From positions 62,001 to 126,000 of the forward strand of contig NZ_JAGSNF010000004.1 of assembly GCF_018139485.1 (NCBI RefSeq): a stretch of DNA of 64,000 bases, given 5' to 3'. The notes beneath the pieces were generated by a model. The model saw nothing but the letters and a program-made list of their open reading frames with translations, was not told the origin of the DNA and made no database searches. The position numbers were made by a program, and so were the translations under genes. This document shows positions 1,999 through 24,645 of the stretch, one piece after another; positions within the stretch are counted from its first letter, which is position 1; each line of letters opens with the position of its first letter. This DNA is from Phycicoccus avicenniae. Its GTDB lineage: Bacteria; Actinomycetota; Actinomycetes; Actinomycetales; Dermatophilaceae.

Positions 1999-2010
1999 TG
2001 ACACACGTCA
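1999..2010. promoter_or_regulatory. TGAC-N4-GTCA palindrome, copy 1 (before ABC exporter)
   Basis: TGACACACGTCA ends 118 nt before the exporter ATPase start. It is followed by TCCGC, as in copies 12244 and 24362 when read toward their genes. It is one of six perfect copies of the pattern in non-coding DNA of this cluster. The rest of the 1928-2128 gap shows no further clear signal. Confidence 0.6.
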
Positions 2011-2128
2011 TCCGCCCGGTGTAGCGGGTCACCGCCCGTGCGGACCTCCGTTGTCCGGCAGCCTCCCCCGTGCGTCGATGGGAGCATCCGCGGAGGCACC
2101 CGGCCCCCGCCCGCCGAAGGGGACGTTC

Positions 2129-3091
2129 GTGATCCAGACCCGAGACCTGCGGATGTCGTTCGACTCCGGGAGGGGCCGGCGACGCCGGACCGTCGAGGCG
2201 GTCCGGGGGATCGACCTCGACATCGGCCGCGGCGAGATCGTCGGCCTGCTCGGGCCGAACGGCGCCGGCAAGACGACGACCCTCCGGATCCTCTCGACCC
2301 TGCTGCGCCCCACGTCCGGCGAGGTCCTCGTCTGCGGGCGCGACGTCCGCGCCGACCCCCGCGAGGTCCGCCGCCGCCTCGGCTACGTCTCCCAGGGAGG
2401 GTCGACCTCCCGTCGGGCCCGGGCCGGCGACGAGGCGACCGACCGCGGCATGCTCTACGGACTGACCCGGCGGGCGGCCCGTACCCGGGCCCGCGACCTC
2501 TTCGACCGGCTCGACCTCGGCGACCTGTGGGACCGGCCCGCCGGGTCGCTCTCCGGCGGCCAGCGGCGGCGGCTGGAGATCGCCACCGCCCTCGTCCACG
2601 ACCCCGAGCTCGTCGTCCTCGACGAGCCGACGACCGGGCTCGACCCGCAGTCCCGCGCCAACCTCTGGGACCACATCCGCGACCTGCGCGCCTCCCGCGG
2701 TGCGACCGTGCTCGTGACGACCCACTACCTCGACGAGGCGGACGCCCTGTCGGACCGGCTCGTCGTCGTCGACCACGGCAGCGTCGTCGCGACCGGGACG
2801 AGCGAGGACCTCAAGGCAGACCTCGACGACGACGTCCTCACCGTCCGGCTCGCCGACCCCGCCGACGCCGGCCGGGCCGCGCTGTGCGCCGGGGCGGCGA
2901 CCGGGGACGTGTTCACGCCGGGCGACGGCGTCGTGACCGGCCCGCTCCGCGCCGGGTCCGGCGGGCTCGCCGTCGTCGTCCGAGAGCTCGACCGGCACGA
3001 CGTCGCCGTCGCCGGCCTCGACGTGCGTCGGCCCACCCTCGACGACGTGTTCCTCACCCTCACCGGCCGCTCGCTCCGCGACGCCGCCTGA
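2129..3091 (+). CDS. ABC exporter ATP-binding protein, DrrA-like
   Basis: ATPase subunit of an ABC-2 type exporter, pairing with the permease that starts 14 nt after its stop. It has Walker A GPNGAGKTTT (about residues 42-51), signature LSGGQRRRLEIA, Walker B LVVLDEPTTGLDP and the switch His in THYLDEAD. The length of about 320 aa, with a C-terminal extension after the ATPase core, fits the daunorubicin-resistance DrrA/NodI group. GTG 2129 is preferred because AAGGGG precedes it by about 7 nt; longer in-frame starts lie upstream. It sits in a biosynthetic cluster and has the shared palindrome in its promoter, so export of, or self-protection against, the cluster product is likely. The substrate is inferred. 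Confidence 0.88.
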   Translation: MIQTRDLRMSFDSGRGRRRRTVEAVRGIDLDIGRGEIVGLLGPNGAGKTTTLRILSTLLRPTSGEVLVCGRDVRADPREVRRRLGYVSQGGSTSRRARAGDEATDRGMLYGLTRRAARTRARDLFDRLDLGDLWDRPAGSLSGGQRRRLEIATALVHDPELVVLDEPTTGLDPQSRANLWDHIRDLRASRGATVLVTTHYLDEADALSDRLVVVDHGSVVATGTSEDLKADLDDDVLTVRLADPADAGRAALCAGAATGDVFTPGDGVVTGPLRAGSGGLAVVVRELDRHDVAVAGLDVRRPTLDDVFLTLTGRSLRDAA

Positions 3092-3105
3092 CCCCGGGAG
3101 ACCCC

Positions 3106-3861
3106 ATGACCCTGCTCCGCGACGCCACCGTCGTCCTCCGCCGCCAGGTGCGGCTCAACCTGCGCAACCCCGCGTGGGTGCTGCTCGGCGTGGCCCAGCC
3201 GATCCTGTACCTCGTCCTCTTCGCCCCACTCCTCGGGCCCATCGCCGACCAGATCGGGGTGGAGAACGCCTACACCTTCTTCGTCCCGGGGCTCGTCGTC
3301 CAGATGGGGCTCTTCGGAGCCCTCTACGTCGGGTTCAACCTCCTCGCCGAGTGGCGGGAGGGGGTCGTCGAGGCCGAGCGGGTGACCCCGGCGAGCCGCG
3401 GCGCCCTCCTGCTCGGCCGGCTCGGGCGCGACGTCCTCCAGCTGGGCATCCAGTGCCTGATCCTCGTCGGCGCCGGCTACGTCATGGGGATGGACGCGCC
3501 GGTCGCCGGCGCTCTCGCGGGGGTCGGGATCGCCCTGCTCCTCGGCGCCGCGGGGTCGGCGCTGTCGAACGCCGTCGCGTTGCGCACCCGCAGCGAGGAG
3601 GTCATGGCCCCGCTCGTCAACGTCGTGACGATGCCGGTCCTCCTGCTGTCCGGGATCCTCCTGCCGATGACGCTCGGACCGGGATGGCTGCGGACCGTCA
3701 GCGACGTCATGCCGGTGCGTCACGTCGTCGACGCGGTCCGCGACGTCTTCTCCGGCACCCCGTCGGCCCCGACCGTCGGGCTGGGCGTCGGCGTGACCTG
3801 CGCGATGCTCGTCGCCGGCCTCACGGTCGGTGTGCTCGCCTTCCGCCGAGAGGACGCCTGA
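3106..3861 (+). CDS. ABC-2 type exporter permease, DrrB-like
   Basis: Integral membrane subunit of 251 aa with about six hydrophobic helices and the ABC-2 family layout. A cytoplasmic N-terminus leads into a first helix beginning WVLLGVAQPILYLVLF, and a late loop after VTMPVLLLSGILLPM precedes the last helix. The ATG at 3106 has GGGAG 5 nt upstream and follows the ATPase gene by 14 nt, so the two form one operon. Together they would make a half-transporter dimer moving a hydrophobic product outward. No separate resistance gene is visible in the cluster, so this pair is the best candidate for producer self-protection. Confidence 0.87.
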   Translation: MTLLRDATVVLRRQVRLNLRNPAWVLLGVAQPILYLVLFAPLLGPIADQIGVENAYTFFVPGLVVQMGLFGALYVGFNLLAEWREGVVEAERVTPASRGALLLGRLGRDVLQLGIQCLILVGAGYVMGMDAPVAGALAGVGIALLLGAAGSALSNAVALRTRSEEVMAPLVNVVTMPVLLLSGILLPMTLGPGWLRTVSDVMPVRHVVDAVRDVFSGTPSAPTVGLGVGVTCAMLVAGLTVGVLAFRREDA

Positions 3862-3881
3862 CCCGGCGTCGCCCCTGTCGA

Positions 3882-3920
3882 ACACCCGGTGGTCGTGTCC
3901 TGTTCCCGACCACCGGGTGT
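3882..3920. terminator. Hairpin terminator after the exporter operon
   Basis: Perfect 14-bp inverted repeat (3882-3895 with 3907-3920) and an 11-nt loop, 20 nt after the permease stop. It has no T-run, as is usual at this GC content. It separates the exporter operon from the next promoter region. Confidence 0.65.
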
Positions 3921-3973
3921 CGGCGTGCCCGGGTCCGGGCCGCCGCAGGACGGCCGGTCCGCCGGGCCGCCGG

Positions 3974-3985
3974 TGACCGATGTCA
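3974..3985. promoter_or_regulatory. TGAC-N4-GTCA palindrome, copy 2 (before oxidase/AHBA operon)
   Basis: TGACCGATGTCA ends 109 nt before the multicopper oxidase start and lies just after the exporter terminator. It is the only strong symmetric element in the remaining gap and matches the five other perfect copies in the cluster. Confidence 0.6.
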
Positions 3986-4094: not shown

Positions 4095-5606
4095 ATGAAC
4101 CGTCGCACCGCCCTCCGCCTCGCCGGAGCCGGCCTCGCCACCACCGTCGGCGGGCACCAGCTCGCCGCCCGGGCCGGCACCGCCGAGCTGCCCCCCGGTC
4201 TCGCCCTCGGCCGGGGCCTGACCCACGACCACGGCCCGGCGATGCCGACCGAGCGCCCCGCCGACGCCGGCACCCGGCCGGCCCTGGAGAAGTTCTCGCT
4301 CCCGCTGCCGATCCTGCCCGACGCGGTCCCGGTCGTGAGCAGCCGAGGACTCGACGTCTTCGAGAGCCGGATCCGCGAGGTGCGGGCCGAGATCTTCCCC
4401 GGCCACCCCACGTCGGTCTACGGCTACTTCAGCAGCTGGGTCCCACCCGTCGTGCGGGCCCGTCGCGGCCGCCGGACCATCGTCCGGCAGCGGAACGAGA
4501 CCGACGTCCCGGTCTCGGTGCACCTGCACGGCGGGGTGAACCGTGAGGTCTTCGACGGCCGGATGTCGCACCCGGTCCTCCCCGGCGGCAGCTTCGCCTA
4601 CGTCTACGACAACGACCAGCCGGCGAGCACGCTGTGGCTGCACGACCACACCCACCACACCGACGCCGAGAACGTCTACCGCGGCATGTCGAGCCCCTAC
4701 CTCGTGACGAGCGACGAGGAGGAGGCGCTGGGCCTGCCCTCGGGCGAGTTCGAGGTCCCCCTCGTCCTGCGTGACGCGGACGTCGGCTCCGACGGCGGGC
4801 TCGTCTTCACGATGGACGACACGGAGCACCGCTCGACGATCCTCGTCAACGGCACGCCGTGGCCCCGCATGGAGGTCCGCCGCCGCAAGTACCGCTTCCG
4901 GGTCATCAACTCCTCCGCGATGCGCTTCTTCGTCCTCGGCCTCTCCGACGGCACGCCGATGACCCAGATCGGCGCGGACGCGAGCCTCCTGGAGTCGCCG
5001 GTGCCCGCGCCCGTCGTCCTCCTGTCCCCCGGGGAGCGCGCCGACCTCGTCGTCGACTTCTCCCAGTGGCCCACGGGCACCGACGTCGACGTCGTCAACT
5101 ACACGGGGCCGGGCCCGATGGAGGACGTCGGCCAGGTCATGCGGTTCTCGGTCGGCGCCGACGCGAGCGACGACAGCGTCGTCCCGGACCGACTCACGAC
5201 GCTGCCCGCGGTGCCGCCGGCGAGCGTCGAGCGGCACGTGACGATGCGGATGAGCGAGCCCGGGACGACCCCGATGATCGCGACGATCGACGACCGCTCC
5301 TTCGACATGAGCCGGGTCGACACCCGGGTCGACTTCGGCACGACCGAGGAGTGGACGGTGACGAACGAGAGCGCCACGATCCCGCACAACTTCCACTGCC
5401 ACCTCGCGCACATGCGGGTCCTGGACCGCAGCACCGGCCCGGCCGCACCGAACGAGCTCGGCCTCAAGGACACCGTCGCGATCTTCCCCGGCGAGAGCGT
5501 CCGGGTCCGGATGACCTTCGACCGGCACCGGGGCCTCTACCCCTACCACTGCCACATGCTCGACCACGGCGCGATGGGCATGATGGCCCAGCTGAGGGTG
5601 GTGTGA
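4095..5606 (+). CDS. Tat-exported multicopper oxidase (laccase / phenoxazinone-synthase superfamily)
   Basis: Copper oxidase of 503 aa that should oxidise phenols or o-aminophenols with O2. All four copper-ligand blocks are present: HLHGG (near 142), HDHTHHT (near 183), HNFHCHLAH (near 431) and HCHMLDHGAMGMM (near 485), the last with the type 1 Cys-His-Met set. The N-terminus MNRRTALRLAGAGLATT is a twin-arginine-like signal, so the enzyme probably acts outside the membrane. It heads an operon with an acyl-AMP ligase and the pair that makes 3-amino-4-hydroxybenzoate, an o-aminophenol, which is the kind of substrate Streptomyces phenoxazinone synthase couples. CotA- or CueO-like copper detoxification is the alternative. 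Its role with AHBA is inference from context. Confidence 0.85.
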   Translation: MNRRTALRLAGAGLATTVGGHQLAARAGTAELPPGLALGRGLTHDHGPAMPTERPADAGTRPALEKFSLPLPILPDAVPVVSSRGLDVFESRIREVRAEIFPGHPTSVYGYFSSWVPPVVRARRGRRTIVRQRNETDVPVSVHLHGGVNREVFDGRMSHPVLPGGSFAYVYDNDQPASTLWLHDHTHHTDAENVYRGMSSPYLVTSDEEEALGLPSGEFEVPLVLRDADVGSDGGLVFTMDDTEHRSTILVNGTPWPRMEVRRRKYRFRVINSSAMRFFVLGLSDGTPMTQIGADASLLESPVPAPVVLLSPGERADLVVDFSQWPTGTDVDVVNYTGPGPMEDVGQVMRFSVGADASDDSVVPDRLTTLPAVPPASVERHVTMRMSEPGTTPMIATIDDRSFDMSRVDTRVDFGTTEEWTVTNESATIPHNFHCHLAHMRVLDRSTGPAAPNELGLKDTVAIFPGESVRVRMTFDRHRGLYPYHCHMLDHGAMGMMAQLRVV

Positions 5607-5609: not shown

Positions 5610-7190
5610 ATGACGGTCCAGGCCATCCCGCGCCTCGCCGCCCCGCAGGCGACCGCCGGCACCTCCGGCACCCCGGAGGCCCGGGCGGCGACGGTCCTCA
5701 CCCGCACCCTCGAGCGCCTCGCGTGCTCCGACGACGCGGCCCTGCTCACCCCCGACCGGGCGCTCACCGGCCGCGAGGTCGTCGCCCGGGTCCGCGCGAC
5801 CGCGGGAGCGCTCGCCGACGCGGGCGCCGGGCCCGGCACGGTCGTCGCCGTCCTCACCGGACCCAACGACCCCGACGTCGTCGTCGGTCGGTACGCCGCC
5901 CGTCTCGTCGGCGCCGGCGTCGTGCACCTGCGCTCGATGAACCCGCGGACCGACGAGGAGGCGTTCGGGGTCGAGGCCCAGCTCGACGTCCTCGATCGCA
6001 CGGGCGCCGTGGCCGTCGTCGTCGACGCCGCCTCGCTCGAGCGGGCGACCACGCTGCGCTCCCACCGGCCCCTGCTGCGCGTCGTGCCCGTGGGGACGGA
6101 CGCCGCCACCGACGGGCCGGCCGCGGTCACCGTCGTCCCGGTCCCCACCCCCGACGCCGCGTGCGCGGTCGTCGACGTCACGAGCGGCACGACCGGGGCG
6201 CCCCGCCTCGTCCGCCAGAGCCACCGCTCCCGCGAGCGCCTCGTCGAACGGCTCGCCGACGACCTCGGGAGCGCACCGGTCCACCTGCTGTCGGTGACGC
6301 CCGCGACCCACACGACGGCCCCGATGCTCGACGCCGTCCTGCTCTCCGGCGGCTCCGTCGTGCTCCACCGCCGGTTCGACCCGGGCGCGGTGCTGGGCGC
6401 CGTCGAGGGTGGCGTCACCGACCTGTACCTCGCGGTCCCGCACCTCTGCGCGCTGCTCGACGACCCCCGCACCGCCACCGCCGACCTGCGCTCCCTGCGC
6501 CGGGTCGTCTACAGCGGTACCCCCGCGGCGCCGCACCGGGTGGCCGCGGCCCGGCGGGTCCTCGGGCGGACCGTCGTCCAGGTCTACGGGACGACGGAGA
6601 CCGGCGGGATCAGCGCCCTCACCCCCGAGGACCACGACGAGCCGGTCCTGCACGGCACGGTCGGGCGGCCCTTCCCGTGGGTCGACGTGGAGGTCCGTGA
6701 CCCGGACACCGGCGAGTCGCTCCCGCGCGGTCACGCCGGTGCCGTGTGGGTGCGGTCGGGCACGACCGCCGACGGCTACTGGGGGGAGGACCCCTCGGCG
6801 CTGACCCGGGACGGCTGGGTGGCCACCGGTGACCTCGGCGCGCTCGAGCCGCACGGCCGGCTGCGGCTCGTCGGGCGGCTCGCCGGGGTCATCAAGCTCG
6901 GTGGGCTCAAGATCTACCCGGCGGCCATCGAGTCCGCCCTGCGCGAGCACCCGTCGGTCTCCGACGCGGTCGTCCACGGCATCCGGGACGCCGAGCGCCG
7001 CGAGGCCGTGCACGCCGTCGTCGTCCCGCGGGCCGGCCAGGTCGTCGACGAGGACGAGCTCGTCGCGCACGTGACGGCCCGGCTCAGCGCCACCCACGCG
7101 CCGACCCGCGTCGTCGTGTGGACCGGTGTTCCCCTGACCCGGTCGGGCAAGCCGGACCGGCGGCTCGTCCGAGAGCTGCTGGGAGGATGA
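5610..7190 (+). CDS. ANL-family acyl-AMP/CoA ligase, probably for an aromatic acid
   Basis: Adenylate-forming enzyme of 526 aa that activates a carboxylic acid with ATP. Motifs in order are TSGTTGAPR (near 191), YGTTETGG (near 325), GDLGALEPHGRL (near 407), the hinge and core motif IKLGGLKIYPAAIE (near 428) and PLTRSGKPDRR with the catalytic Lys (near 514). It starts 3 nt after the oxidase stop and overlaps the aldolase region downstream. No carrier-protein domain is fused to it and none lies nearby. The neighbouring AHBA genes make 3-amino-4-hydroxybenzoate the obvious substrate candidate, activated either for attachment to a peptide or as CoA thioester. An unrelated fatty or benzoic acid cannot be excluded from sequence alone. 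Confidence 0.85.
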   Translation: MTVQAIPRLAAPQATAGTSGTPEARAATVLTRTLERLACSDDAALLTPDRALTGREVVARVRATAGALADAGAGPGTVVAVLTGPNDPDVVVGRYAARLVGAGVVHLRSMNPRTDEEAFGVEAQLDVLDRTGAVAVVVDAASLERATTLRSHRPLLRVVPVGTDAATDGPAAVTVVPVPTPDAACAVVDVTSGTTGAPRLVRQSHRSRERLVERLADDLGSAPVHLLSVTPATHTTAPMLDAVLLSGGSVVLHRRFDPGAVLGAVEGGVTDLYLAVPHLCALLDDPRTATADLRSLRRVVYSGTPAAPHRVAAARRVLGRTVVQVYGTTETGGISALTPEDHDEPVLHGTVGRPFPWVDVEVRDPDTGESLPRGHAGAVWVRSGTTADGYWGEDPSALTRDGWVATGDLGALEPHGRLRLVGRLAGVIKLGGLKIYPAAIESALREHPSVSDAVVHGIRDAERREAVHAVVVPRAGQVVDEDELVAHVTARLSATHAPTRVVVWTGVPLTRSGKPDRRLVRELLGG

Positions 7191-7192: not shown

Positions 7193-8041
7193 ATGACGAC
7201 CCGGACCGGCCCCCGCGAGACGCGACTGCGACGTCTCTACCGCCACTCCCCGAGCGGGCTCCTCGTGACCCCGCTCGACCACACCCTGGCCTGCGGTCCC
7301 GTGACCCGCCCCGGGCGCTCGCTCGACGACCTCGTCGCCGCGCTGGCCGCCGGGGGGTCGGACGCCGTCGTCCTCCACAAGGGCGCCGTGCGGCACGTCG
7401 CCCCCGAGCACCTCGCCGCCGTCGGGCTCGTCCTGCACCTCAACGGCAGCACCGCCTCGGCTCCCGACCCCGACGCCAAGGTGCTCCTCACCTCGGTCGA
7501 GGAGGCACTGCGGCTCGGCGCCGACGCGGTGAGCGTCCACGTCAACCTCGGGTCGAGGACCGAGGCCGACCAGCTCCGCGACCTCGCCGCCGTCGCGGAC
7601 GCCTGCGAGCGGTGGCAGCTGCCGCTGCTCGTCATGGCCTACCCGCGCGGTCCCGGCGTGATCGACCCGACGGACCCCGACCTGCTGCTCCGGGCCGTCA
7701 CCGTCGCGCACGACCTGGGGGCCGACCTCGTCAAGACCTCCGCCCCCCGCGACACCGCGACGACCCGCGACCTCGTCGCGAGCTGTCCGGTCCCCCTGCT
7801 GCTCGCGGGAGGCCCCCCACGCGAGGACGAGCGGCGGCTGCTCGCCGACGTCCGCCGTGCGGTCGCCGCCGGCGTCGGCGGGCTCGCCATGGGTCGGGCG
7901 CTCTTCGGCGCCGCCGACCCCCGACGCACGACCGCCTGCGTGGCGGCACTCATCCACCGGAGACCGGGTCTCGTCGCGAGCCCGCACCCCATCGAGGAAG
8001 GAAAGACCCATGTCGACGACGACCAGGCTGTGCTGGCTTGA
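7193..8041 (+). CDS. Class I aldolase, 2-amino-3,7-dideoxy-hept-6-ulosonate synthase type (GriI-like)
   Basis: Schiff-base aldolase of the DeoC/LacD-related family that includes archaeal AroA' and Streptomyces GriI. In grixazone synthesis GriI joins dihydroxyacetone phosphate with aspartate semialdehyde to give a C7 precursor of 3-amino-4-hydroxybenzoate. Visible here are the family start LVTPLDHT, VMAYPRG in mid-protein, and the Schiff-base Lys181 in DLVKTSAP; the protein ends with a GG/GLAMGRALFG phosphate-binding region. ATG 7193 is chosen over ATG 7187 because GGGAGG lies 6 nt before it but directly abuts 7187. The next gene begins 32 nt before this stop and is the matching second enzyme, which strongly supports the assignment. 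Confidence 0.85.
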   Translation: MTTRTGPRETRLRRLYRHSPSGLLVTPLDHTLACGPVTRPGRSLDDLVAALAAGGSDAVVLHKGAVRHVAPEHLAAVGLVLHLNGSTASAPDPDAKVLLTSVEEALRLGADAVSVHVNLGSRTEADQLRDLAAVADACERWQLPLLVMAYPRGPGVIDPTDPDLLLRAVTVAHDLGADLVKTSAPRDTATTRDLVASCPVPLLLAGGPPREDERRLLADVRRAVAAGVGGLAMGRALFGAADPRRTTACVAALIHRRPGLVASPHPIEEGKTHVDDDQAVLA

Positions 8042-9169: not shown

Positions 9170-9604
9170 ATGTCCACCATCACGCCCACCGCCGAGGTCG
9201 CCCCGCGGCCCGTGCCCACCGTGTCCACCCTCGTCGCCGTCGTCGTCCGGGCGGCCGTCGTCGCGCTCGTCGCCAACATCGTCCTGCAGACCATCGCCCG
9301 GATCGCCGGCGTCGAGACCGTCGTCGTCCCCCCGGGCGCCGCCGCCGTCACCGTCGCCCCGGTCTCCGTCGTCACGATGACCGTCGTGCCCCTCGTCGTC
9401 GGCGGCGCCGTCCTCCTGGTCGCCTCCCGCATCTCCGCGGCCGCCGTCACCGCGCTGCCGTGGATCGGTGTCGTCCTCGGGGTCGGCACGGCGCTCATGC
9501 CGCTGTCGATGGGTGGCGACCTCGCGGGACGCCTCGTCCTCGCCGCGATGCACGTCGTCGTCGGCGTCGCCTGGTTCGTCTCGGTCCGCCGCAGCCAGGG
9601 CTGA
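9170..9604 (+). CDS. Four-helix membrane protein, DUF6069-like
   Basis: Small integral membrane protein of 144 aa. After a soluble N-terminus of about 20 residues there are four hydrophobic segments, including VRAAVVALVANIVLQTIARI and a last one near AMHVVVGVAWFVSV. The layout fits DUF6069 proteins, whose function is unknown. It is the last gene of the oxidase-ligase-AHBA operon, has a good AAAGGA ribosome site 9 nt before ATG, and is followed by a strong terminator. A helper for export, immunity or membrane placement of the product is possible but not shown. Confidence 0.7.
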   Translation: MSTITPTAEVAPRPVPTVSTLVAVVVRAAVVALVANIVLQTIARIAGVETVVVPPGAAAVTVAPVSVVTMTVVPLVVGGAVLLVASRISAAAVTALPWIGVVLGVGTALMPLSMGGDLAGRLVLAAMHVVVGVAWFVSVRRSQG

Positions 9605-11766: not shown

Positions 11767-11778
11767 TGACCGGTGTCA
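11767..11778. promoter_or_regulatory. TGAC-N4-GTCA palindrome, copy 3 (before LuxR operon)
   Basis: TGACCGGTGTCA is 109 nt from the first start of the LuxR-monooxygenase operon on the minus strand. A copy with one change (GGAC-GGGT-GTCA) lies at 11811-11822, so this promoter may carry a tandem pair and could be autoregulated. Confidence 0.55.
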
Positions 11779-16262: not shown

Positions 16263-19200
16263 GGCTCAAGGCCCGACCCGACCTGCACCACGCACCGCTG
16301 CCCGACGGGGTCTACGTCTCGTCGGGCACCGGGGAGTTCGCCCTCTCCGGCTGGTCGGGCTTCGCCGACCTCCTCGGTCGCTGCCTGCCCCTGCTGGGGC
16401 GGGGCGCCGACGAGGACGAGCTGGTCACGGCCATCGGCACGGAGAAGGCCCGGCCCGCGGTGCGTCACCTCGTCGGCCAGCTCGAGGCCCACGACATGGT
16501 GCTCCGCCTCGACGCCCTCGGCACCGAGGAGCCGGACGGGGAGGACCGGGCCCGGCACGCCGAGCTCCTGGCCTACCTGGAGTGCCGCTCCTCGGAGCCG
16601 TACGCGGCGTTCGAGGAGATCCTCTCGGCCCGCGTTCTCCTCGTCGGACCCGACGCCGCCCTGACCGTCGCCGGCAGCGCCCTGCGCGAGCTCGGGATCT
16701 CCGGCGACGTCGAGGACACCGGTGGTCGCGACCACGACGTCGCGGTCACCGTCCTGCCGCGGGACCGCGTCGGGGAGATCCCGCCCCGGGCGCGACGCGT
16801 CCTGCCGGTCGTCGTGGGCGAGCGGGCTGCTCTCGTCGGTCCGCTCGTCCACGACCTGCACGGCTGGCGCCGGTGGCGCTCCCTCGTCGAGCGCACCCTC
16901 GACCGGGACGGCCCGGGGCTCGACGAGGCGGCCGGGACGGCCGTCGCCGTCTCCTCCGCCGTGCACCTGCTGCTCCAGGACCTCGCCTCGGTCGCCGGTC
17001 CCGACGCGTACGTCGTCGCCGGCGAGACGCTCGCGGTGCAGGCGCTGGACCTGCCCCGCGAGACCGGTCACGACGGCGACGAGACCACGCTCGACGACGC
17101 CGACGACGAGGACCACGACGCCGACCTCGGCGGCTGGCTCGTCCGGCTCACCGACCCCTGGGTCGGCCCGGCCGAACCCCTCGACGAGGACACGCTGCCG
17201 CAGATGCCGGTGGCCCTGCGCCGGGTGCGCACCCCCGACGGAGGCGTCGTCGTCGCGGACGGCCCCGACCAACGGACCGCCGCGGCGGCGGCCGTGCTCG
17301 CCGTGTCCCGGCGGCTGTGCGGCGGCGGGTCGGCGGGCGCGAGCACGCTGCGGTGGCTCCTCGACGGTGCGCTCCGTGCCCTCGCCGACCGCGCCGTCGG
17401 CACGTCGGGCGTCGCCGTCGGAGGAGGCGACGACGCCCGGCTCGCCGCCGCCCTCGAGGCCGCCGGCGCCTCCCCCCGGCTCACCGCCGCCCACGTGCCG
17501 GGCCTCACGTGGGTCCTCGTGCGCTGCGCCCTCCCCGACGGCCGGTCGACGACGGCCTGGGGTCCGGACATGGGGACCGCGACCCGGGACGCGCTGTCGC
17601 GGGCGGTCGCCGTGCACACCCTCCGCGGACACGGCTCCGCCCTCCTCGGCGCCCCCGGGACCGCCGCGCTGCGCGACGCCACCCCCGAGCAGGCGTCGGC
17701 GCTCGCCGAGGAGATCCGGGGCTGGCTCGTGGCGCGCGGCTTCCGGCTCGTCGGACGGCGTCACCCGGCCGACCCCCACGTCGGTGCCGGGCCGGTGCAC
17801 CACGGCCGCGTCCGTCTCGTCGAGAGCCACGAGGCCGCACGCGGACCGGAGGACCGACGCACCGGGCTGCAGACCCTCACCGCCCTGCTCACCGCCCGGA
17901 CCGGCGCCGACCCCGTCGTGACGAGCGGCTGGGAGCACGACGTGCTCGAGGAGGCCGTGACCCGCTCGCGCACCTCCGGTCGACCGCTCGTCCCGGTCCG
18001 GACGGGCGCGGACGCCGTCGTCGTCGGGCCGCTGTGGTCCGCGGCCTCGGCGGCGGGGTGTCCGGCGTGCGCCGAGACCCGGCGGCGGACCGTCCTCGAC
18101 CACGTGCTCGGGGTCGACCTGCGGCAGCCCGCGACGCCGGCGGGACCGGCGCCGGCGAGCCTCCTCGACCTCGCGGCGACGACGCTGCGCGGGACGAGCC
18201 CGCCCCGCGAGGGTGAGGTCCTCGTCGTCGGCGCGGACGGCGTGAGCCGCCACCACGTGCTGCGGCACCCCACGTGCCCGTGGTGCGCCCCCACCCCCGG
18301 GTCGGACGCGCCGCAGGGCCTCGACCTCCTCGACGCGCCGGTCGACCCCGAGGACCCGACCCGGGTCGCGGCGGGGACGCCCCTGCTCGACGCGGACCGG
18401 CTCGCCGCCGCCGTCGACGACCGCTACGGACCGGTCCGCGGCATCCTGCGCGAGGAGGCCGTGCCGTACGCCATGAGCATGGCCGTCCTCGCCGGCGGCC
18501 CCGTCATGGGGCACGGCCGTGCGCTGTCCTTCGACCGGACCCGCTCGGTCGCGGTCCTCGAGGCGTACGAGCGGCTCGCGGGCTTCCCCTACGAGGCGCC
18601 CGTCGTCACCGACCGTACCTACCGCGAGGTCGCCGCGGACGCCGTGGACCCACTGCGGCTGGGCCGGTACTCGCCGGCGCAGCTCGCGCACCCGAGCTCC
18701 AAGGTCGAGGCCTACCACCCCGACCTGCCGCTCGACTGGGCCTGGGGCGTCGACCTCGCCTCGGGACGGGCCCGGCTCGTCCCCGCCGAGGTCGGCTTCT
18801 ACCAGTACGACCACGCCTTCAAGCGTGACCTCCGCGCGTCACGGTCCGCCCCGCCGGAGCAGCGGCGTCGGGTCTTCCTCGAGTCCTCGAGCGGGTGCGC
18901 CCTCGGCTCGACGCTCGCCGAGGCGGTCGTCCACGCCCTCTTCGAGGTCGCCGAGCGGGACGCGTTCCTCCTCGCCTGGCACCGGGGCGACCCGCTGCCG
19001 GAGGTGCCGGCCCGTGAGCTCGCCGACCCGGTCGTCGACGCCCTCGTCGCCCTCGTCGAGTCCCGGGGACTCGACGTCCACTTCCTCCGGGCGACCCAGG
19101 ACGTCGACCTCCCCGTCGTGTGGGTCCTCGCCGTGTCCCGGGACGGGACGTTCCCCGCGTCCTTCACGAGCGCCGGCTCGGGCGCCGACCCGGTCTCGGC

Positions 19201-19693
19201 CGCTCGGTCCGGGCTGCGCGAGGTCGCCCAGCTCGCGACGATGCCGCTGGACTGGGACGAGGACGACGCCCGCGCCCTCGTCGCCGACTCGTGGCGGGTC
19301 CGTGAGCTCGAGGACCACGTCCGCTGGTCCTCGGCGCCCGAGGCGCTGGAGCGGGTGACCTCCGTCCTCGGCGGACCGCAGGTCTCGCTCGCCGAGGCCT
19401 TCCCGGGCTGGCCCGCGCGGCTGCGACCGCACGACGGCAGCATCCGCACGACCCTGGGGCTCGTCGCCGGCGCCTTCGCCGACGCCGGTCTGGGCGAGGT
19501 CGTCGTCGTCGACCAGTCGACGCGCGAGCACCGGGACCAGGAACTGCACGTCGTGAAGACCGTCGTCCCCGGCACCGTCCCGATGGTCTTCGGCCAGGCC
19601 CACCAGCGGTTGCTCGGGATCCCGCGGCTCGAGGCGGCCCTCGCCGGCCGTGACCCGGCCGCGCACCCCCACGACCCGCACCCGTTCCCGTGA
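16259..19693 (+). CDS. Fused E1-like/YcaO azoline cyclodehydratase
   Basis: Protein of 1144 aa joining the two cyclodehydratase parts that are separate (TbtF/TbtG) in thiomuracin-type clusters. The N-terminal 80-90 residues look like a winged leader-binding (RRE-type) region and lead into an E1/ThiF-like domain. Two zinc-type pairs, CPAC (601-604) and CPWC (near 673), mark the end of the E1-like part. The YcaO domain follows from about residue 690, with ESSSGCALGSTLAEAVVHAL and the acidic helix FEVAERDAFLL characteristic of ATP/Mg binding. The last residues HPHDPHPFP match the proline-rich C-terminus needed by azoline-forming YcaO enzymes. It should cyclise Cys (and possibly Ser/Thr) of the precursor to azolines. 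Overlaps at both ends (ATGA, GTGA) show tight operon coupling. Confidence 0.9.
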   Translation: MRLKARPDLHHAPLPDGVYVSSGTGEFALSGWSGFADLLGRCLPLLGRGADEDELVTAIGTEKARPAVRHLVGQLEAHDMVLRLDALGTEEPDGEDRARHAELLAYLECRSSEPYAAFEEILSARVLLVGPDAALTVAGSALRELGISGDVEDTGGRDHDVAVTVLPRDRVGEIPPRARRVLPVVVGERAALVGPLVHDLHGWRRWRSLVERTLDRDGPGLDEAAGTAVAVSSAVHLLLQDLASVAGPDAYVVAGETLAVQALDLPRETGHDGDETTLDDADDEDHDADLGGWLVRLTDPWVGPAEPLDEDTLPQMPVALRRVRTPDGGVVVADGPDQRTAAAAAVLAVSRRLCGGGSAGASTLRWLLDGALRALADRAVGTSGVAVGGGDDARLAAALEAAGASPRLTAAHVPGLTWVLVRCALPDGRSTTAWGPDMGTATRDALSRAVAVHTLRGHGSALLGAPGTAALRDATPEQASALAEEIRGWLVARGFRLVGRRHPADPHVGAGPVHHGRVRLVESHEAARGPEDRRTGLQTLTALLTARTGADPVVTSGWEHDVLEEAVTRSRTSGRPLVPVRTGADAVVVGPLWSAASAAGCPACAETRRRTVLDHVLGVDLRQPATPAGPAPASLLDLAATTLRGTSPPREGEVLVVGADGVSRHHVLRHPTCPWCAPTPGSDAPQGLDLLDAPVDPEDPTRVAAGTPLLDADRLAAAVDDRYGPVRGILREEAVPYAMSMAVLAGGPVMGHGRALSFDRTRSVAVLEAYERLAGFPYEAPVVTDRTYREVAADAVDPLRLGRYSPAQLAHPSSKVEAYHPDLPLDWAWGVDLASGRARLVPAEVGFYQYDHAFKRDLRASRSAPPEQRRRVFLESSSGCALGSTLAEAVVHALFEVAERDAFLLAWHRGDPLPEVPARELADPVVDALVALVESRGLDVHFLRATQDVDLPVVWVLAVSRDGTFPASFTSAGSGADPVSAARSGLREVAQLATMPLDWDEDDARALVADSWRVRELEDHVRWSSAPEALERVTSVLGGPQVSLAEAFPGWPARLRPHDGSIRTTLGLVAGAFADAGLGEVVVVDQSTREHRDQELHVVKTVVPGTVPMVFGQAHQRLLGIPRLEAALAGRDPAAHPHDPHPFP

Positions 19694-21258
19694 CGTTCGC
19701 CCCGACCCGCGTCCCCGGTCCCGGCTGGCTGCCCGGACCGGGACGCCAGGGTGCCGTCGACCGCGAGACCCTCTGGTACGACCACGCCCTCGGGGACGAC
19801 GCGCCGGTCCCGCCGCCGTGGGCCGGACGGCCGGCGGGGGACGAGGAGCCGGTGCCGGACGACCTCGTCGACCTGGTCGCCCGCCCGGGGAAGGCCCGAC
19901 CCTGGCCGTCGGGGCTGTGGGGGTCCGCGGTGGCGACGGCCTTCCCGGCTCCCGCCCCGGCGGGACCCGACGCGACGGGATCCGTGGGGCGGGCCTCGCT
20001 GCGGCTGGCGGCGCACGCCGTGGCCGCGGTCCGCCGCGACCCCGACGACCCCTACAACGACCACCGCGCCTACGCCTCCCCGCGGTGCGTCTTCCCGGTC
20101 AGGGCGGCCGTCGTCACCGACGGCGAGTGGCACGTCCTCGACCCCGACCGACGACGTGTCGTCCCCTCGGGCGTCGACGCCGGCCCGGCGGCCGACGAGG
20201 GGACCATCGCGCTCTCCGGGCGGTGGGACGCCGTCCCCGCGGGCTACGGCTGGTTCCGCGGCGGACTCGTCGCGATCGAGACCGGGATCCTCCTGCGTCA
20301 CCTCGCGGTGCTCGGCCGGCTGCACGGGCTCCCCCTGTCGGTCTCGGCGCCGGGACCCGGGGCCGGCACCACCTCGGCGCGCCGGACGTGGCGCGACCCC
20401 GCGCGGTGGTCCCCGCCGTGGGTCCTCACCCCGGACACCGCGGCTCCGGCCACCGGGGGCTCCGCGGTGTCGCCGGACCTGCCGCCCGACCCGTGGGCAG
20501 GGGCGTCGGCCCCGGCCGCCGGCCCCGTCCTGCACGGCGACGACGCGGGCGAGGACCTCGCGCGCGTCTACGGCTCGCACGTCGTCCCGGGGCCACCCGC
20601 AGCCCTCGGGACCGGCCTCCCGGACCACCCGGGGACCGGTGACGCCGGGTCCTGGGCCGAGGTCCTGTGGCGTCGGAGTGCGGGACGGATGCCCCGGGGC
20701 CTCTTCGGCTTCCGGGTCGCGGACCGTGCCGTCGACCGCGGGGACGCCCACGCGCTGGCGCGCTGGGCGCTGCTCCCCCCACCGGGACCGGTCGCCGCGG
20801 CCGACGCCGGCCGCCGGGTCCACGCCCTCGTCCGGGACGTGCCGGGACTCGAGCCCGGCGTGCACGAGGTCGTCGACGGGGCGTTCCACCCGCGGGCCAC
20901 CCTCCCGGACGCCCTCGACCGCTTCGCCGCCGCCTACCTCTACGGGTCGGACGTGATGTCCCGCAACGACATCGCCCACGCCCCCCTCGTCCTCGTGACG
21001 ACGAGCCGTCCCCGCGCCGCGGTCCGGCGGGCCGGGCCGGGCGGCTGGACCGCGACGCACGTCGCCGCGGGCTGGCTCGCCCACGGGGTGTCGCTCGCCG
21101 CGGCGGCCCGCCGGCTCGTCGCCCGCCCGGTCCGTGCGCTCGACGAGCGCGACGTCGCCGCGGCCCTCGACCTCGACGACGACGAGATGGTGGGCCTCGC
21201 CGTCGTCGTCTCCCACCACGCCCCCCACGGCGGACTGCAGATCGACCTCAGGAGCTGA
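19690..21258 (+). CDS. TbtE-like flavin-dependent azoline dehydrogenase (double nitroreductase fold)
   Basis: Protein of 522 aa, with a GTG start overlapping the YcaO stop. It is a diverged nitroreductase-superfamily enzyme with two similar halves. The N-half contains YNDHRAYASPRCVFPVRAAV and FRGGLVAIETGILLRHLAVL; the C-half contains SDVMSRNDIAHAPLVLVTTS and a final helix region near DDDEMVGLAVVVSHH. This layout is that of thiopeptide dehydrogenases such as TbtE/PbtE, which use FMN to oxidise thiazolines or oxazolines to azoles. Its place between the cyclodehydratase and the elimination protein fits that step. A second, more typical SagB-type dehydrogenase is encoded at 22216-23673, so work may be divided between Cys- and Ser/Thr-derived rings; that is speculation. 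Confidence 0.75.
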   Translation: MTFAPTRVPGPGWLPGPGRQGAVDRETLWYDHALGDDAPVPPPWAGRPAGDEEPVPDDLVDLVARPGKARPWPSGLWGSAVATAFPAPAPAGPDATGSVGRASLRLAAHAVAAVRRDPDDPYNDHRAYASPRCVFPVRAAVVTDGEWHVLDPDRRRVVPSGVDAGPAADEGTIALSGRWDAVPAGYGWFRGGLVAIETGILLRHLAVLGRLHGLPLSVSAPGPGAGTTSARRTWRDPARWSPPWVLTPDTAAPATGGSAVSPDLPPDPWAGASAPAAGPVLHGDDAGEDLARVYGSHVVPGPPAALGTGLPDHPGTGDAGSWAEVLWRRSAGRMPRGLFGFRVADRAVDRGDAHALARWALLPPPGPVAAADAGRRVHALVRDVPGLEPGVHEVVDGAFHPRATLPDALDRFAAAYLYGSDVMSRNDIAHAPLVLVTTSRPRAAVRRAGPGGWTATHVAAGWLAHGVSLAAAARRLVARPVRALDERDVAAALDLDDDEMVGLAVVVSHHAPHGGLQIDLRS

Positions 21259-21262: not shown

Positions 21263-22168
21263 ATGACGCACTGGACCTCCCGGCACCTCCATCTCGCGAC
21301 CGGCGCGACGAGCGCGCTCGACCGCGTCCTCGCGGAGGTGGCCGCCCCCGCAGCGCGGGACACCGGCCGACCCTGGTTCTTCGTCCGGTACTGGCAGGGC
21401 GGCCCGCACCTCCGCCTGCGGGTGGCGGACCTCGACGGCCCGGCCGCCGACCGCCTCACCGCACGCCTGGAGCGGCTCCTCGAGCCGCACCTCGCGCCGC
21501 GCGCCGGAGAGCCGCCGGTCGAGGAGGCCGCCTACACCGCCGAGGCGTCCCGGCACGCCCGCGGCGAGACCGGCGAGAACCGCACCGTCTCCGCTCTGCG
21601 TCCGGCCGGTGCCCACCCCGCGACGTACGAGCCGGAGCTCGAGCGGTACGGCGGCGCGGACGTCATGGCGGCCTCGGAGCGGCTCTTCGTGCGCTCCTCC
21701 GAGCTCGTCGTCGACGTCCTGCCGAGCGTGCCCACCCTCGCCGACCGACGGCGGCTCGCGCTGCGGCTCGCGGCCGCCGCCGCACGTCCGCTCGGCCCGC
21801 TGCCCGCGCAGTCGGTCTTCTTCGAGGTCGGTCGTCGGTCGTGGGCGGCCTGGGCCCGGTCGTACGGCACGGACGAGGCCGTGGTCACGGCCACGGCCCG
21901 CGTCGACCGTGCGCCGGCGCCCGGGGCCTTCGAACCCCTGCCGGGGGTGCTGGGGACATGGCACGACGACGTCGCGGTCCTCGTCGCCACCCTCGGGCAC
22001 GCGGGGCACCCGGTACCGGGGGCCGTGGTCTCCTCGCACGTCCACATGACGCACAACCGGCTGGGGCTGGGCATCCTCGACGAGCTGCGGACCTACGCCG
22101 TCCTCGCGCGGACGTTCCCGGCCGACCCGGCGGCGGTCCCGGACCTCGGGCTGCCGGTCCCGGCCTGA
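21263..22168 (+). CDS. Thiopeptide-type elimination protein (TIGR03891/SpaB_C-like, TbtC-like)
   Basis: Protein of 301 aa that should remove glutamate from glutamylated Ser/Thr to leave dehydroalanine or dehydrobutyrine. The family blocks are clear: WTSRHLHLATG at the start, WFFVRYWQGGPHLRLRV (about residues 36-52), YEPELERYGG in mid-protein, and SSHVHMTHNRLGL near the C-terminus. The length is normal for a stand-alone SpaB_C protein. AGGAG lies just before ATG 21263, four bases after the previous stop, so it closes the enzyme operon. It partners the glutamylation protein at 13683-16262. The assignment to elimination rather than pyridine formation rests on its canonical motifs. Confidence 0.83.
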   Translation: MTHWTSRHLHLATGATSALDRVLAEVAAPAARDTGRPWFFVRYWQGGPHLRLRVADLDGPAADRLTARLERLLEPHLAPRAGEPPVEEAAYTAEASRHARGETGENRTVSALRPAGAHPATYEPELERYGGADVMAASERLFVRSSELVVDVLPSVPTLADRRRLALRLAAAAARPLGPLPAQSVFFEVGRRSWAAWARSYGTDEAVVTATARVDRAPAPGAFEPLPGVLGTWHDDVAVLVATLGHAGHPVPGAVVSSHVHMTHNRLGLGILDELRTYAVLARTFPADPAAVPDLGLPVPA

Positions 22169-22199: not shown

Positions 22200-22215
22200 C
22201 GGGCGAGGCGAGAGG

Positions 22216-23673
22216 TCAGTCCGGGTCGCCGCTCCCGAGGACCGTCCACCCGGCCAGCGGCTCGCCGGCGACGACGTCCGCGGCGTCCCGGCGGCCGAGG
22301 ACGAAGTCCCCGACGGAGGACTCGCGCAGCCAGTCCAGGCCGAGGACCCGCGCGGAGAGGTCGGCGTCGCCGTTGCCGAGCGCGCACGGCGCGAGGTCGA
22401 GGTCGGTCGCCACGAGGTACATCGTCTGGTAGATCGCGCCGGTCGTGCGCAGCACGTTGGCGTAGGCGATCGAGCGGTACCGCCAGGACATCCGCTGGAA
22501 CCGGGCCGTCAGGGTGAGGAGCACGTCGGGGCTCGAGGGATGTCCGGTGGCGGCGGCCGCGACGGCGAGCATCGCGCGGGCCGGCTCGGGGTCGTCGTCG
22601 ACGAGCTCGAGGCGGTGCCGCAGGGCGTCGTAGTGGTAGACGCCGGGGTCGAGCCCGTCGCACCGCCGGACGGTGAGGTACAGCTCGTGCTCGTACAGCC
22701 CGCCTCCGCTCGGGTACGGACGGGAGACCTTGGACTCCTCGGCGGAGCCGACCGGGGGGTCGAAGCGCGCCCGGTCACGGAAGCTGCGGTGCAGGAAGGT
22801 CGCGAGCTCGACGAGGGTGACCGGCGCGTCGGCGTAGTCGCGCACCGAGCGCCGCTGCCGGACGGCGTCGGCGAGGCTGAGGCCCCCGGACCAGGGCGGC
22901 GGGTCGGGCAGGGCGACGACGCGCGCACACTCCGGACGGGGGTCGGTGACGGCGGGTAGCGGGTCGACGAGTCCGCGGTGAGGGCTGAGGGCACCGAGCG
23001 GCTCGTCCCACCGGCCGCTGCGACTGCGACTGTGCATGAGCAGGTCGTGGAAGTCCCACTGGCGCAGGACCTCGTCGGTGTCGCTGCGGAACGTCCCGTC
23101 GGCGTCCGCGCGCTCGAGCAGGCCCGCGCCGGCCCAGTGACCCAGCAGCTCAGCGGCCGCGAGGCCCCCGGGCAGGGTGGGGAGGTCGCCGACCCGGCGG
23201 GGCACGGCCACCTCGGCGGCGAGGGACCGGGCCTCGGGGGAGGTGAGGACGAAGCGGTGGACCGACCGCGGGCACTCGAGGACGAGCTGGTCCTCCCGGC
23301 TGCGCAGGAGGGCGAACCGGTCGAGCCGGACGACGTCGTCGTCGCTCGGCGGATGTGGGGTGTACCCGGTCGCCCGGGTCGTCCCCTCGTGCCGCATCAC
23401 CTCGTGCTCCGCCAGCGTCAGGCGGTTCGTCGCGAGGTGCGCGAGCCGGCCGAGCAGGGCGTCGGCGGCGCGCCGGGCCTCGTCGGGGAGGTCGTCACCG
23501 ACGGTCGCACCGTTCCCGGCGAGGTGCTCGCGGACCGGGACCGGCAGGCCCCGCAGGCGGGTGACCCTCCCGGCGCCGTCGAGGACGAGGTCCTCGCCGT
23601 CGAGGTCCGCAGCGACCGAGGGGCGCAGTCCGGCGCGGCCCTCGAGGAGGCCGACCGCGGGGAGCGGGGTCAT
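22216..23673 (-). CDS. SagB-type FMN dehydrogenase with N-terminal RiPP domain
   Basis: Protein of 485 aa. The N-terminal 190 residues form a helical/winged region seen in many SagB-type proteins (EHEVMRHEGTTRATGYTP, then RFALLRSREDQLVLEC). The C-terminal nitroreductase domain carries the flavin-site blocks SLADAVRQRRSVRDYADAPV, SRPYPSGGGLYEHELYLTV and TGAIYQTMYLVATDLDLAPCALG. TIGR03605 enzymes oxidise azolines to azoles in thiazole/oxazole-modified peptides. Its ATG overlaps the stop of the membrane protein gene (ATGA), so both share a promoter that carries the cluster palindrome. It is a second dehydrogenase beside the TbtE-like one, unusual for a single small precursor. Confidence 0.88.
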   Translation of the reverse strand: MTPLPAVGLLEGRAGLRPSVAADLDGEDLVLDGAGRVTRLRGLPVPVREHLAGNGATVGDDLPDEARRAADALLGRLAHLATNRLTLAEHEVMRHEGTTRATGYTPHPPSDDDVVRLDRFALLRSREDQLVLECPRSVHRFVLTSPEARSLAAEVAVPRRVGDLPTLPGGLAAAELLGHWAGAGLLERADADGTFRSDTDEVLRQWDFHDLLMHSRSRSGRWDEPLGALSPHRGLVDPLPAVTDPRPECARVVALPDPPPWSGGLSLADAVRQRRSVRDYADAPVTLVELATFLHRSFRDRARFDPPVGSAEESKVSRPYPSGGGLYEHELYLTVRRCDGLDPGVYHYDALRHRLELVDDDPEPARAMLAVAAAATGHPSSPDVLLTLTARFQRMSWRYRSIAYANVLRTTGAIYQTMYLVATDLDLAPCALGNGDADLSARVLGLDWLRESSVGDFVLGRRDAADVVAGEPLAGWTVLGSGDPD

Positions 23674-24272
23674 CGCGGAGCCGGGGCGGGCCGGAGTGCG
23701 TCGACGGCCATGAGGGCGAGCATCGCGACCCCGGTCAGGACCGCGGCGGCCGCGACGGCCTCGGCGCCGACGACCCATCCCAGAGCGAGGCCGAGCACGC
23801 CGAGGCCGGCGAGGGTCCAGCCGAGGACCCCGAAGACCGGCGCGTCGAAGGCGGAGGCGAAGGGGACGAAGTGCAGCCCGACGGCGAGGACGACGACCCC
23901 GGGCATGAGCTCGGGCCGACCCGCGGCGTCGAGCGCGACGCGGCCGACGGCGAACGCGGCGAGCATGCCGAGCACCGAGCCGGTGTAGACGAGCCCGGCG
24001 AACCGACCCGGCGGCTCGAGGTCCCGCAGACGGCGGCGACGCAGGAGGACCGCCCAGGCGCAGAGGGCCAGGGCCAGGGCCCACGCGGCGACGGCGAGCG
24101 CCGGCCAGGGGTCCGGCAGCAGCACACGGTTGACGTGGACGAACGCGCTGGCCCCCGACGCGCCGATGATGACGCCGAGCACCTGCGGGTGGAGCAGGTG
24201 GTGGATCCCCCGGTGTGGGCGGTCGAGGTCCGATGCGGGGGCGTGCACGGTGGGTCCTGTCGTCGCCGCCAT
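23670..24272 (-). CDS. Six-helix integral membrane protein of the RiPP cluster
   Basis: Membrane protein of 200 aa with about six hydrophobic helices starting near LGVIIGASGASAFVHV and ending near GVAMLALMAVDAL, plus a soluble N-terminus of 30 residues. No family is recognised with confidence. ATG 24272 is supported by GGAAGG about 9 nt upstream. It is the first gene of a two-gene operon with the SagB-type dehydrogenase and has a perfect TGAC-N4-GTCA palindrome 89 nt upstream. Immunity, export or localisation of the maturation complex are all possible. No catalytic residues can be pointed to. Confidence 0.7.
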   Translation of the reverse strand: MAATTGPTVHAPASDLDRPHRGIHHLLHPQVLGVIIGASGASAFVHVNRVLLPDPWPALAVAAWALALALCAWAVLLRRRRLRDLEPPGRFAGLVYTGSVLGMLAAFAVGRVALDAAGRPELMPGVVVLAVGLHFVPFASAFDAPVFGVLGWTLAGLGVLGLALGWVVGAEAVAAAAVLTGVAMLALMAVDALRPAPAPR

Positions 24273-24645
24273 GGCGGTCGTCCTTCCGGCCGGGGTGCTC
24301 ACCCCACCACTGTCCACCCCCCGCTGCCCCCGGTGCAGTGTCAGGACGCATCGTCAGCGGATGACGGGTGTCATCCGGGACGGCGATGGAGCCGGGGTGA
24401 TGCCAACGCGCCCCTGCACGCGCCATCACCCCGGCTCGTCCGGCGACGCCCTGCACGTCCCGGCCCGACCGCCACGTCCGAACGGACGCGACAGCCGTGA
24501 TGCGACATGGGGGGAACGGTGCCGCCCCCCTGCCTATTCCTCGTCCACCGAAAATCGCGTCGTTCACCTGCGAGGAGGTGTGGCTGTCGGAGCGATGGGT
24601 AAGGATGGACGGACTGACCGGCTACCTGATGGAAGGACCCCGGCC
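24273..24645. promoter_or_regulatory. Divergent region with palindrome copy 6 and the egtB leader
   Basis: 373 nt without a gene. An 18-bp palindrome at 24359-24376 has TGACGGGTGTCA (24362-24373) as its centre, 89 nt before the membrane-protein gene on the minus strand; it is the most symmetric copy in the window. On the plus side GGTAAGGATGG (24599-24609) is a possible -10 region for egtB, about 40 nt before its start, and GGAAGGA gives the ribosome site. The part between 24380 and 24590 shows no clear element. Confidence 0.55.

Follow-up and report, generated by a model that had tools for sequence, protein, structure and literature searches.

The thiopeptides nosiheptide and thiostrepton carry aromatic acids that derive from tryptophan (methylindolic acid and quinaldate) and that are made separately and adenylated. 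In the biosynthesis of grixazone, 3-amino-4-hydroxybenzoate (AHBA) is made by GriI and GriH and activated by an adenosine monophosphate (AMP)-binding enzyme, and the same steps are proposed for the ahbamycins in the available passages of PMC10179220. An adenylating-type ligase is proposed to join AHBA to a phenol in bagremycin (available passages of PMC6692506), and ClxA reportedly forms both amides and phenyl esters (available passages of PMC12519233). Here, we describe a 64,000-nucleotide stretch of the Phycicoccus avicenniae genome (contig NZ_JAGSNF010000004.1, positions 62,001 to 126,000; hereafter, the window), in which a thiopeptide gene cluster appears to carry its own AHBA pathway under a shared promoter site.

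Like the clusters for thiomuracin (Tbt) and GE2270 (Pbt), the window encodes TbtB-, TbtC-, and TbtD-type enzymes, a YcaO protein, a dehydrogenase, and a member of the same precursor family; unlike them, it has an extra SagB, an AMP ligase, AHBA genes, and a multicopper oxidase (MCO). The separately made and adenylated aromatic acid proposed here recalls nosiheptide and thiostrepton, but the acid would be AHBA made via GriI and GriH. GriI, GriH, an adenylating ligase, and in some cases an aminophenol oxidase are shared with the grixazone, bagremycin/ferroverdin, and ahbamycin clusters, for which the available passages of PMC10179220 and PMC6692506 describe no ribosomal peptide.

The core peptide itself is already known. 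A cryptic thiopeptide cluster of Streptomyces venezuelae NRRL B-65442 (RS25565-25620) has the same 18-residue core, SSGSIGTSSSSSSTCSAC, and the relevant passages of PMC9769785 and PMC11256431 neither give its product nor name AHBA. As far as their available passages go, PMC8788739 lists the S. venezuelae thiopeptide cluster without a product, PMC12466573 lists a thiopeptide cluster with BD-12 and cutimycin as bracketed names, and PMC12224297, PMC10972967, and PMC11213898 contain both thiopeptide and AHBA terms, but apart from one another. In the open-licence PMC literature, judged mostly from listings, no AHBA thiopeptide is described. What is new is the pairing with AHBA genes, how widely this pairing occurs, and the site common to the promoters.

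Co-inheritance of the AHBA and thiopeptide genes

The earlier note on this DNA had joined a ribosomally synthesized and post-translationally modified peptide (RiPP) with an AHBA route and held that the idea would fail if the two gene sets rarely co-occurred in related genomes and were expressed independently. GriH and the pyridine synthase of the type found in the window do co-occur, and the partnership is supported by their distribution within the genus, by a broader genome sample, and by the grouping of GriH proteins. In the genus of the window, 3 of 12 genomes have GriH; the same three have the pyridine synthase, and the other nine have neither. Across the family, only 3 of 186 genomes have GriH.

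The least biased sample consisted of 238 genomes of the genus of G465 (which we infer to be Streptomyces-like), drawn regardless of GriH and searched with the pyridine-synthase profile. Fifteen strong matches (423-579 bits) were obtained, and all 15 have GriH at a distance of 7.4-17.1 kb, whereas none of the 21 weak matches (133 bits or less) has GriH nearby. Two of the weak genomes (G609 and G627) have GriH elsewhere, and GriH was found in none of 9 of the remaining 19 when these were searched again with every candidate scored. Co-location was read from the coordinates of separate GriH and pyridine-synthase searches. The difference (15/15 vs 0/21) gives a Fisher p of 1.8e-10, uncorrected for relatedness and with G465 being both one of the 15 strong genomes and a source of rows in both models.

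A class-wide sample of 394 genomes contained 18 with GriH and 41 with a pyridine-synthase match. The two genes lie within 20 kb of each other in 5 of the 41, which belong to five families (G000, G213, G271, G328, and G465, with G271 assessed by tblastn). They are not co-located in the other 36, five of which have GriH elsewhere, although genes on different contigs of draft assemblies could still be neighbours. The five co-located pyridine synthases score at least 238 bits against the window protein, whereas among 25 other fetched pyridine-synthase loci, 17 score 62.5 bits or less and 8 show no match. Proteins of the window type thus stand far from the other thiopeptide-type pyridine synthases fetched, with scores of at least 232 bits inside the group.

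GriH was found in 83 of 392 genomes of G465's genus. Forty loci among the best-scoring, after exclusion of G465 and G224, were fetched; 21 are thiopeptide clusters and 19 lack thiopeptide genes within 20 kb, a proportion that owing to this selection is not a rate. A short 34% SagB match is present in one of the 19 (L162), and a further co-located case (G648) stands lower on the GriH list. An AMP ligase with about 45% identity or more to that of the window over at least 476 aa accompanies GriH in 21 of 21 thiopeptide loci vs 0 of 19 other loci. In a midpoint-rooted tree of 61 GriH proteins, 28 thiopeptide-linked proteins are separated from 33 others by one branch (support 100/99); the named AHBA clusters were not identified among those 33. 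As to kinship within the samples, G160 and G156, the two sister genomes from the genus of the window, are close to one another, and several Streptomyces-type loci are near-copies.

The shared site and its candidate regulator

The palindrome TGACNNNNGTCA matches the window eight times against 0.71 expected, and none of 100 shuffles reached eight. The matches start at 1999, 3974, 11767, 12244, 12464, 24362, 32203, and 41457; the match at 32203 falls inside a called gene. All six sites between 1999 and 24373 are intergenic, and each lies 101-178 bp upstream of its own operon, beginning with the exporter (2129), the oxidase (4095), the LuxR gene (11589, minus strand), the precursor (12093, minus strand), the pyridine synthase (12565), and the membrane protein-SagB pair (24248, minus strand). 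The earlier note's statement that all six operons between about 2.1 and 24.3 kb carry the site thus holds. It had also called the palindrome the same and perfect throughout; the two 4-base half-sites of TGAC-N4-GTCA are perfect, but the 4-base spacer varies, so that what the six promoters have in common is a type of site rather than an identical sequence. Across the 3.54-Mb genome, the extended version GGATGACN4GTCA is present at 11 separate positions, 6 in one 28-kb stretch at the cluster and five elsewhere.

With the sites left of the window described below, the full regulon has nine sites at eight promoters, and both sister genomes have counterparts of all nine with intact half-sites; the spacers are changed in 4 of 9 and unchanged in 5 of 9. 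Matching promoters in three other families also carry TGAC-N4-GTCA. The 13 Streptomyces-type loci with the same core (assigned below to class A) contain 41 copies vs 4.05 expected from 20 first-order Markov resamplings per locus, and G213 and G328 contain 5 each (0.45 and 0.75 expected, respectively), whereas the 8 fetched loci of class B contain 4 vs 1.5 expected, which is no clear enrichment. The region separating the MCO gene from the SagB gene contains an exact site in each of the 13 Streptomyces-type class A loci, and the region separating the membrane-protein gene from the pyridine-synthase gene does so in 8 of them. The 24362 site also faces the ergothioneine gene egtB (24646), 284 bp upstream of it (130 and 129 bp in the sisters), and egtB and egtD could be part of the regulon. 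No Rfam RNA element was found in positions 1-30000 at gathering cut-offs.

The LuxR-family regulator, which shares 83% identity with its counterparts in the two sister genomes, is most likely the protein that would control these operons. The window, G213, G328, and 13/13 Streptomyces-type class A loci each have a LuxR protein containing the segment GTVRNxxSxAxxKxxxRNR, its gene lying inside the cluster or no more than approximately 5 kb away. A helix-turn-helix (HTH) segment much like this one, but ending in ESR instead of RNR, is found in the response regulator at 1319-1927, which may recognise this site or a related one. We prefer the LuxR protein because proteins labelled as response regulators in the Streptomyces-type loci have a different HTH segment. 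Beside the LuxR gene, the 13 Streptomyces-type class A loci (L131-L148, next to GriH) have one gene of 155-179 aa and another for an HTH protein (261-334 aa).

Gene content of the cluster

The features are compiled in Table 1. The gene assignments made earlier for the oxidase, AMP ligase, aldolase, AHBA synthase, LuxR protein, FAD monooxygenase, precursor, YcaO, TIGR03891 protein, and SagB were all confirmed.

Table 1. Genes and promoter sites of the regulon in window coordinates (negative values lie left of the window)
Feature	Coordinates	Strand	Basis
Class III lanthipeptide synthetase (LanKC)	-3376 to -785		RamC_N above cut-off; lanthi_synth_III 473.9 bits (cut-off 575)
228-aa protein of lanthipeptide operon, 3' end	1..107	+	starts 579 bases left of the window (L003:15421); no Pfam match
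Sensor histidine kinase, lanthipeptide operon	168..1322	+	Pfam HisKA_3
NarL/LuxR-type response regulator	1319..1927	+	Response_reg and GerE; 91% identical in two sister genomes
Site TGACACACGTCA	1999..2010	none	motif match
ATP-binding cassette (ABC) exporter ATPase, DrrA type	2129..3091	+	family match
ABC exporter permease, DrrB type	3106..3861	+	family match
Site TGACCGATGTCA	3974..3985	none	motif match
Multicopper oxidase (MCO)	4095..5606	+	laccase-like relatives nearest; HxH copper motifs present
Acyl-AMP/coenzyme A (CoA) ligase, presumed AHBA activator	5610..7190	+	family match
GriI/BagB/FevI-type DhnA aldolase	7193..8041	+	NF041223 296 bits (cut-off 500); NF005556 263 bits (cut-off 241)
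GriH/BagC/FevH-type AHBA synthase	8010..9122	+	NF041224 497 bits (cut-off 750); DHQS II NF002625 above cut-off
DUF6069 membrane protein	9170..9604	+	family match
Flavin adenine dinucleotide (FAD) monooxygenase	9672..10844	-	solved relatives including vanillate and 4-hydroxybenzoate 1-hydroxylases
LuxR-family regulator	10846..11589	-	family match; candidate site binder
Site TGACCGGTGTCA	11767..11778	none	motif match
Thiazolylpeptide precursor, core SSGSIGTSSSSSSTCSAC	11935..12093	-	NF033400 51.9 bits (cut-off 30); TIGR03892 35.1 (cut-off 25)
Site TGACCCACGTCA	12244..12255	none	motif match
Site TGACGGCTGTCA	12464..12475	none	motif match
Pyridine synthase, TbtD/PbtD type	12565..13686	+	NF045556, profile and Foldseek matches
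LanB-type glutamylation domain, TbtB type, 859 aa	13683..16262	+	G328 orthologue; best fold TbtB, weak model
Leader-binding protein fused to YcaO cyclodehydratase	16259..19693	+	TIGR03604 224.1 bits (cut-off 219.25); TIGR03882 47.9 (36.9)
Nitroreductase-like protein, presumed azoline dehydrogenase	19690..21258	+	Pfam Nitroreductase 27.8 bits (cut-off 23.5)
TbtC-like elimination enzyme (TIGR03891)	21263..22168	+	93.1 bits (cut-off 48.45)
SagB/ThcOx-type dehydrogenase	22216..23673	-	TIGR03605 164.7 bits (cut-off 78.4)
Membrane protein	23670..24248	-	weak DUF7010 match, below cut-off
Site TGACGGGTGTCA within full palindrome GGATGACGGGTGTCATCC	24362..24373	none	motif match

The components that mark a thiopeptide cluster were found: the precursor family, a split LanB (glutamylation and elimination proteins), and a YcaO protein with its leader-binding partner, which are fused in the window and encoded by two genes in G213, G328, and G465. 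The candidate pyridine synthase matches NF045556 with an E-value of 2e-36 but at 125.8 bits, below the equivalog cut-off of 325. Its profile matches the solved structures of PbtD (1.7e-24) and TbtD (6e-13), and all 13 Foldseek matches of its model (pLDDT 69.7) at E ≤0.001 are PbtD, TbtD, and TsrL, so that homology points to a [4+2] pyridine synthase outside the range of the equivalog model. The 859-aa protein has no direct family match, and a sequence search of the PDB yielded nothing useful; its G328 orthologue scores above the Lant_dehydr_N Pfam cut-off, whereas three other orthologues compared do not. Its structure model is poor (pLDDT 58), and its nine Foldseek matches at E ≤0.001 are all of the LanB type, with TbtB first. 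A search of plasmids returned only distant YcaO proteins.

Adjacent genes for a DhnA aldolase and a predicted AHBA synthase constitute the AHBA module. The best model for GriI is BagB/FevI (NF041223), and that for GriH is the DHQS-II family, with BagC/FevH (NF041224) second. The specific models NF041223 and NF041224 are of the exception type, and both scores fall below their cut-offs, whereas the broader families score above theirs. The AMP ligase, whose nearest relatives are fatty-acyl-CoA ligases followed by luciferase and 4-coumarate ligase, provides the adenylating enzyme needed for a tethered aromatic acid, AHBA being its predicted substrate. The MCO is probably exported, its N-terminus reading as what we take to be a twin-arginine signal. 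The nearest solved relatives of the FAD enzyme are decarboxylative vanillate and 4-hydroxybenzoate hydroxylases and a tropone monooxygenase. Of the 19 non-thiopeptide loci, 7 also have an FAD enzyme (41-47% identity) close to GriH, indicating that this gene goes with AHBA pathways more generally.

A lanthipeptide arm left of the window

One regulon for the six operons had been proposed earlier; the shared site type agrees with this, but the regulon so drawn was incomplete, lacking an arm to the left of the window (L003:12400-16107, corresponding to window positions -3600 to 107). Two sites, with TGAC at -3491 and -3469, precede the gene for a class III lanthipeptide synthetase, and a further site at -810 lies 120 bp before a gene for a 32-aa lanthipeptide precursor. 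The precursor (MSVNEMQ...DWPFSTISIVYC) ends in STISIVYC, and those of the sister genomes read ...DWQFSTISIVYC. LanKC is thus accompanied by a precursor with the class III motif SxxSx(2-5)C. The precursor gene is followed by genes for the 228-aa protein, which reads like a degenerate ABC ATPase, the histidine kinase, and the response regulator.

In both sister genomes, all genes of the set are found in the same order, with the lanthipeptide synthetase at one end and the membrane protein at the other, and the regulon spans two RiPPs in three genomes. In the sisters (L018 and L021), three genes are inserted between those for the DUF6069 protein and the FAD monooxygenase, which read like a sugar ABC transporter (a binding protein and two permeases), and G160 has one further gene. 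The remaining 25 thiopeptide-AHBA loci compared gave no LanKC match when 20-55 kb of each was searched, either by tblastn or by blastp of the called genes. Four of the LanKC relatives (35-43% identity) in other family genomes likewise adjoin short open reading frames whose last or penultimate residue is cysteine.

Two classes of loci and an invariant core

The loci fall into two classes. Class A comprises 18 loci from four families with the core SSGSIGTSSSSSSTCSAC. Its 13 Streptomyces-type loci all hold GriI and GriH, but were found through GriH; each has an MCO, SagB, and two tandem precursors with the same core and often different leaders, and none of the 13 has an FAD-enzyme match within 20 kb. 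G213 has the FAD enzyme, with no MCO found among the called genes of 55 kb; G328 has the MCO, with no FAD enzyme found among the called genes of 52 kb; and the window genus has both. Class B comprises 8 loci, G465, and G271, with variable cores containing CC-S-run-CC(CC). Within 20 kb, the 8 loci show no match to the MCO or to SagB; the FAD enzyme (42-47% identity) is present in 7, and L130 has only a weak match (29%). In contrast to the constant class A core, the class B precursors of L132, L153, and L156 have a long and variable sequence separating the SS start from the CC-S-run.

The class A core is letter-identical in 31 precursor copies from four families, encoded by 16 DNA versions with up to 18 silent base differences in 54. 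Identity of the peptide despite this DNA diversity indicates strong selection on the peptide rather than recent copying, and suggests that the core has one precise molecular job. Unmodified, this core has a calculated mass of 1594.6087 Da, to which one aminohydroxybenzoyl group would add 135.03 Da by formula.

Proposed pathway and alternative explanations

In the scheme that we favour, the LuxR-family regulator would act on TGAC-N4-GTCA to control the operons. Ser/Thr residues of the core would be dehydrated by the LanB-type enzyme together with the TIGR03891 protein, the YcaO fusion and the two dehydrogenases would form azoles, and the TbtD-type enzyme would close the pyridine macrocycle and release the leader. 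Aspartate semialdehyde and dihydroxyacetone phosphate would meanwhile be turned into AHBA by GriI and GriH, to be adenylated by the AMP ligase. The most likely fate of AHBA is then attachment to the side chain of a core residue, where it would form an appended or side ring; we estimate the probability that AHBA is covalently joined to the peptide at about two in three. The ABC exporter would ship the product out, and the copper oxidase may then oxidise the o-aminophenol group. A more specific version is possible but doubtful: the stand-alone AMP ligase itself would join the AHBA unit, the copper oxidase would convert it outside the cell to a quinone imine, and a core cysteine would capture this, the invariant core then serving a conserved role, as a signal or metal binder, rather than that of a diversifying antibiotic.

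Several observations weigh against this scheme. The pyridine synthase, GriI, GriH, and LanKC all score below their specific NCBIfam cut-offs, and the LuxR protein is not the sole candidate regulator, given the similar HTH segment of the response regulator. The MCO and the FAD enzyme are not constant among clusters, and the GriH tree does not establish class A as one group. No carrier protein, acyltransferase, or esterase was recognised among the cluster proteins scanned; on the precedent of the bagremycin ligase and ClxA, however, a lone ligase could acylate the peptide, which would answer the missing acyltransferase. Finally, the FAD enzyme, resembling decarboxylative hydroxylases, could divert AHBA from carboxyl activation, and once AHBA is decarboxylated, joining to the peptide through its carboxyl group is impossible.

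The last point also bears on an unlikely but substantial alternative, in which one regulator governs two products acting together: the thiopeptide, and an independent pigment (an o-aminophenol or phenoxazinone derived from AHBA) that the copper oxidase would oxidise extracellularly. AHBA genes, a ligase, and an oxidase are the tool set of grixazone, the oxidase looks exported on the motif noted above, the FAD enzyme could supply the decarboxylation, and the MCO and FAD genes swap between clusters. The ahbamycins, moreover, are free AHBA derivatives that include acylated AHBA and a phenoxazinone (available passages of PMC10179220). However, co-inheritance in the sample runs both ways (15/15 vs 0/21), the GriH proteins of thiopeptide clusters group together, and the ligase is present in 21/21 of these loci, whereas independent co-products would be expected to separate somewhere. 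The distribution of GriH and the pyridine synthase and the GriH grouping led us to reject co-location of the AHBA and RiPP genes by chance. In a related proposal, the GriI/GriH-like genes would serve aromatic amino acid synthesis by the archaeal-type dehydroquinate route and lie here by accident. In its favour, only broad shikimate-type models score above cut-off, but BagB/FevI and BagC/FevH rank first or second among the models, and GriH is both rare in the family (3/186) and beside the ligase in every thiopeptide locus (21/21), which makes the proposal scarcely credible.

The joint reading of AHBA and thiopeptide could also be mistaken as to the acceptor or the site. In the manner of the acylated lipolanthines, AHBA might be attached to the lanthipeptide, with the thiopeptide as a mere neighbour; in three genomes the genes for the lanthipeptide synthetase and its precursor have the same site and are only a few kb away from the AHBA operon. 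This is highly improbable, since LanKC relatives occur in family genomes lacking GriH, and the lanthipeptide was rejected as the AHBA acceptor given the lack of a LanKC match in the 20-55 kb searched at each of the 25 other loci. It is very unlikely, too, that the palindrome is the site of a general genome-wide regulator and uninformative on the cluster: five GGATGACN4GTCA places do lie elsewhere, but 6 of 11 fall within 28 kb of 3.54 Mb, and the half-sites are kept at the same cluster promoters in the sisters, despite spacer changes in 4 of 9, and in other families. A purely general regulon was rejected on this clustering and conservation.

Significance

The joint system of AHBA and thiopeptide genes is well supported, and a joint product is likely. 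A putative thiopeptide subclass with its own AHBA pathway is present in approximately 1 in 16 of the Streptomyces-type genomes sampled (15/238) and in four other families. Because its core has been printed for the model organism S. venezuelae, the question of an AHBA-peptide hybrid can be tested there.

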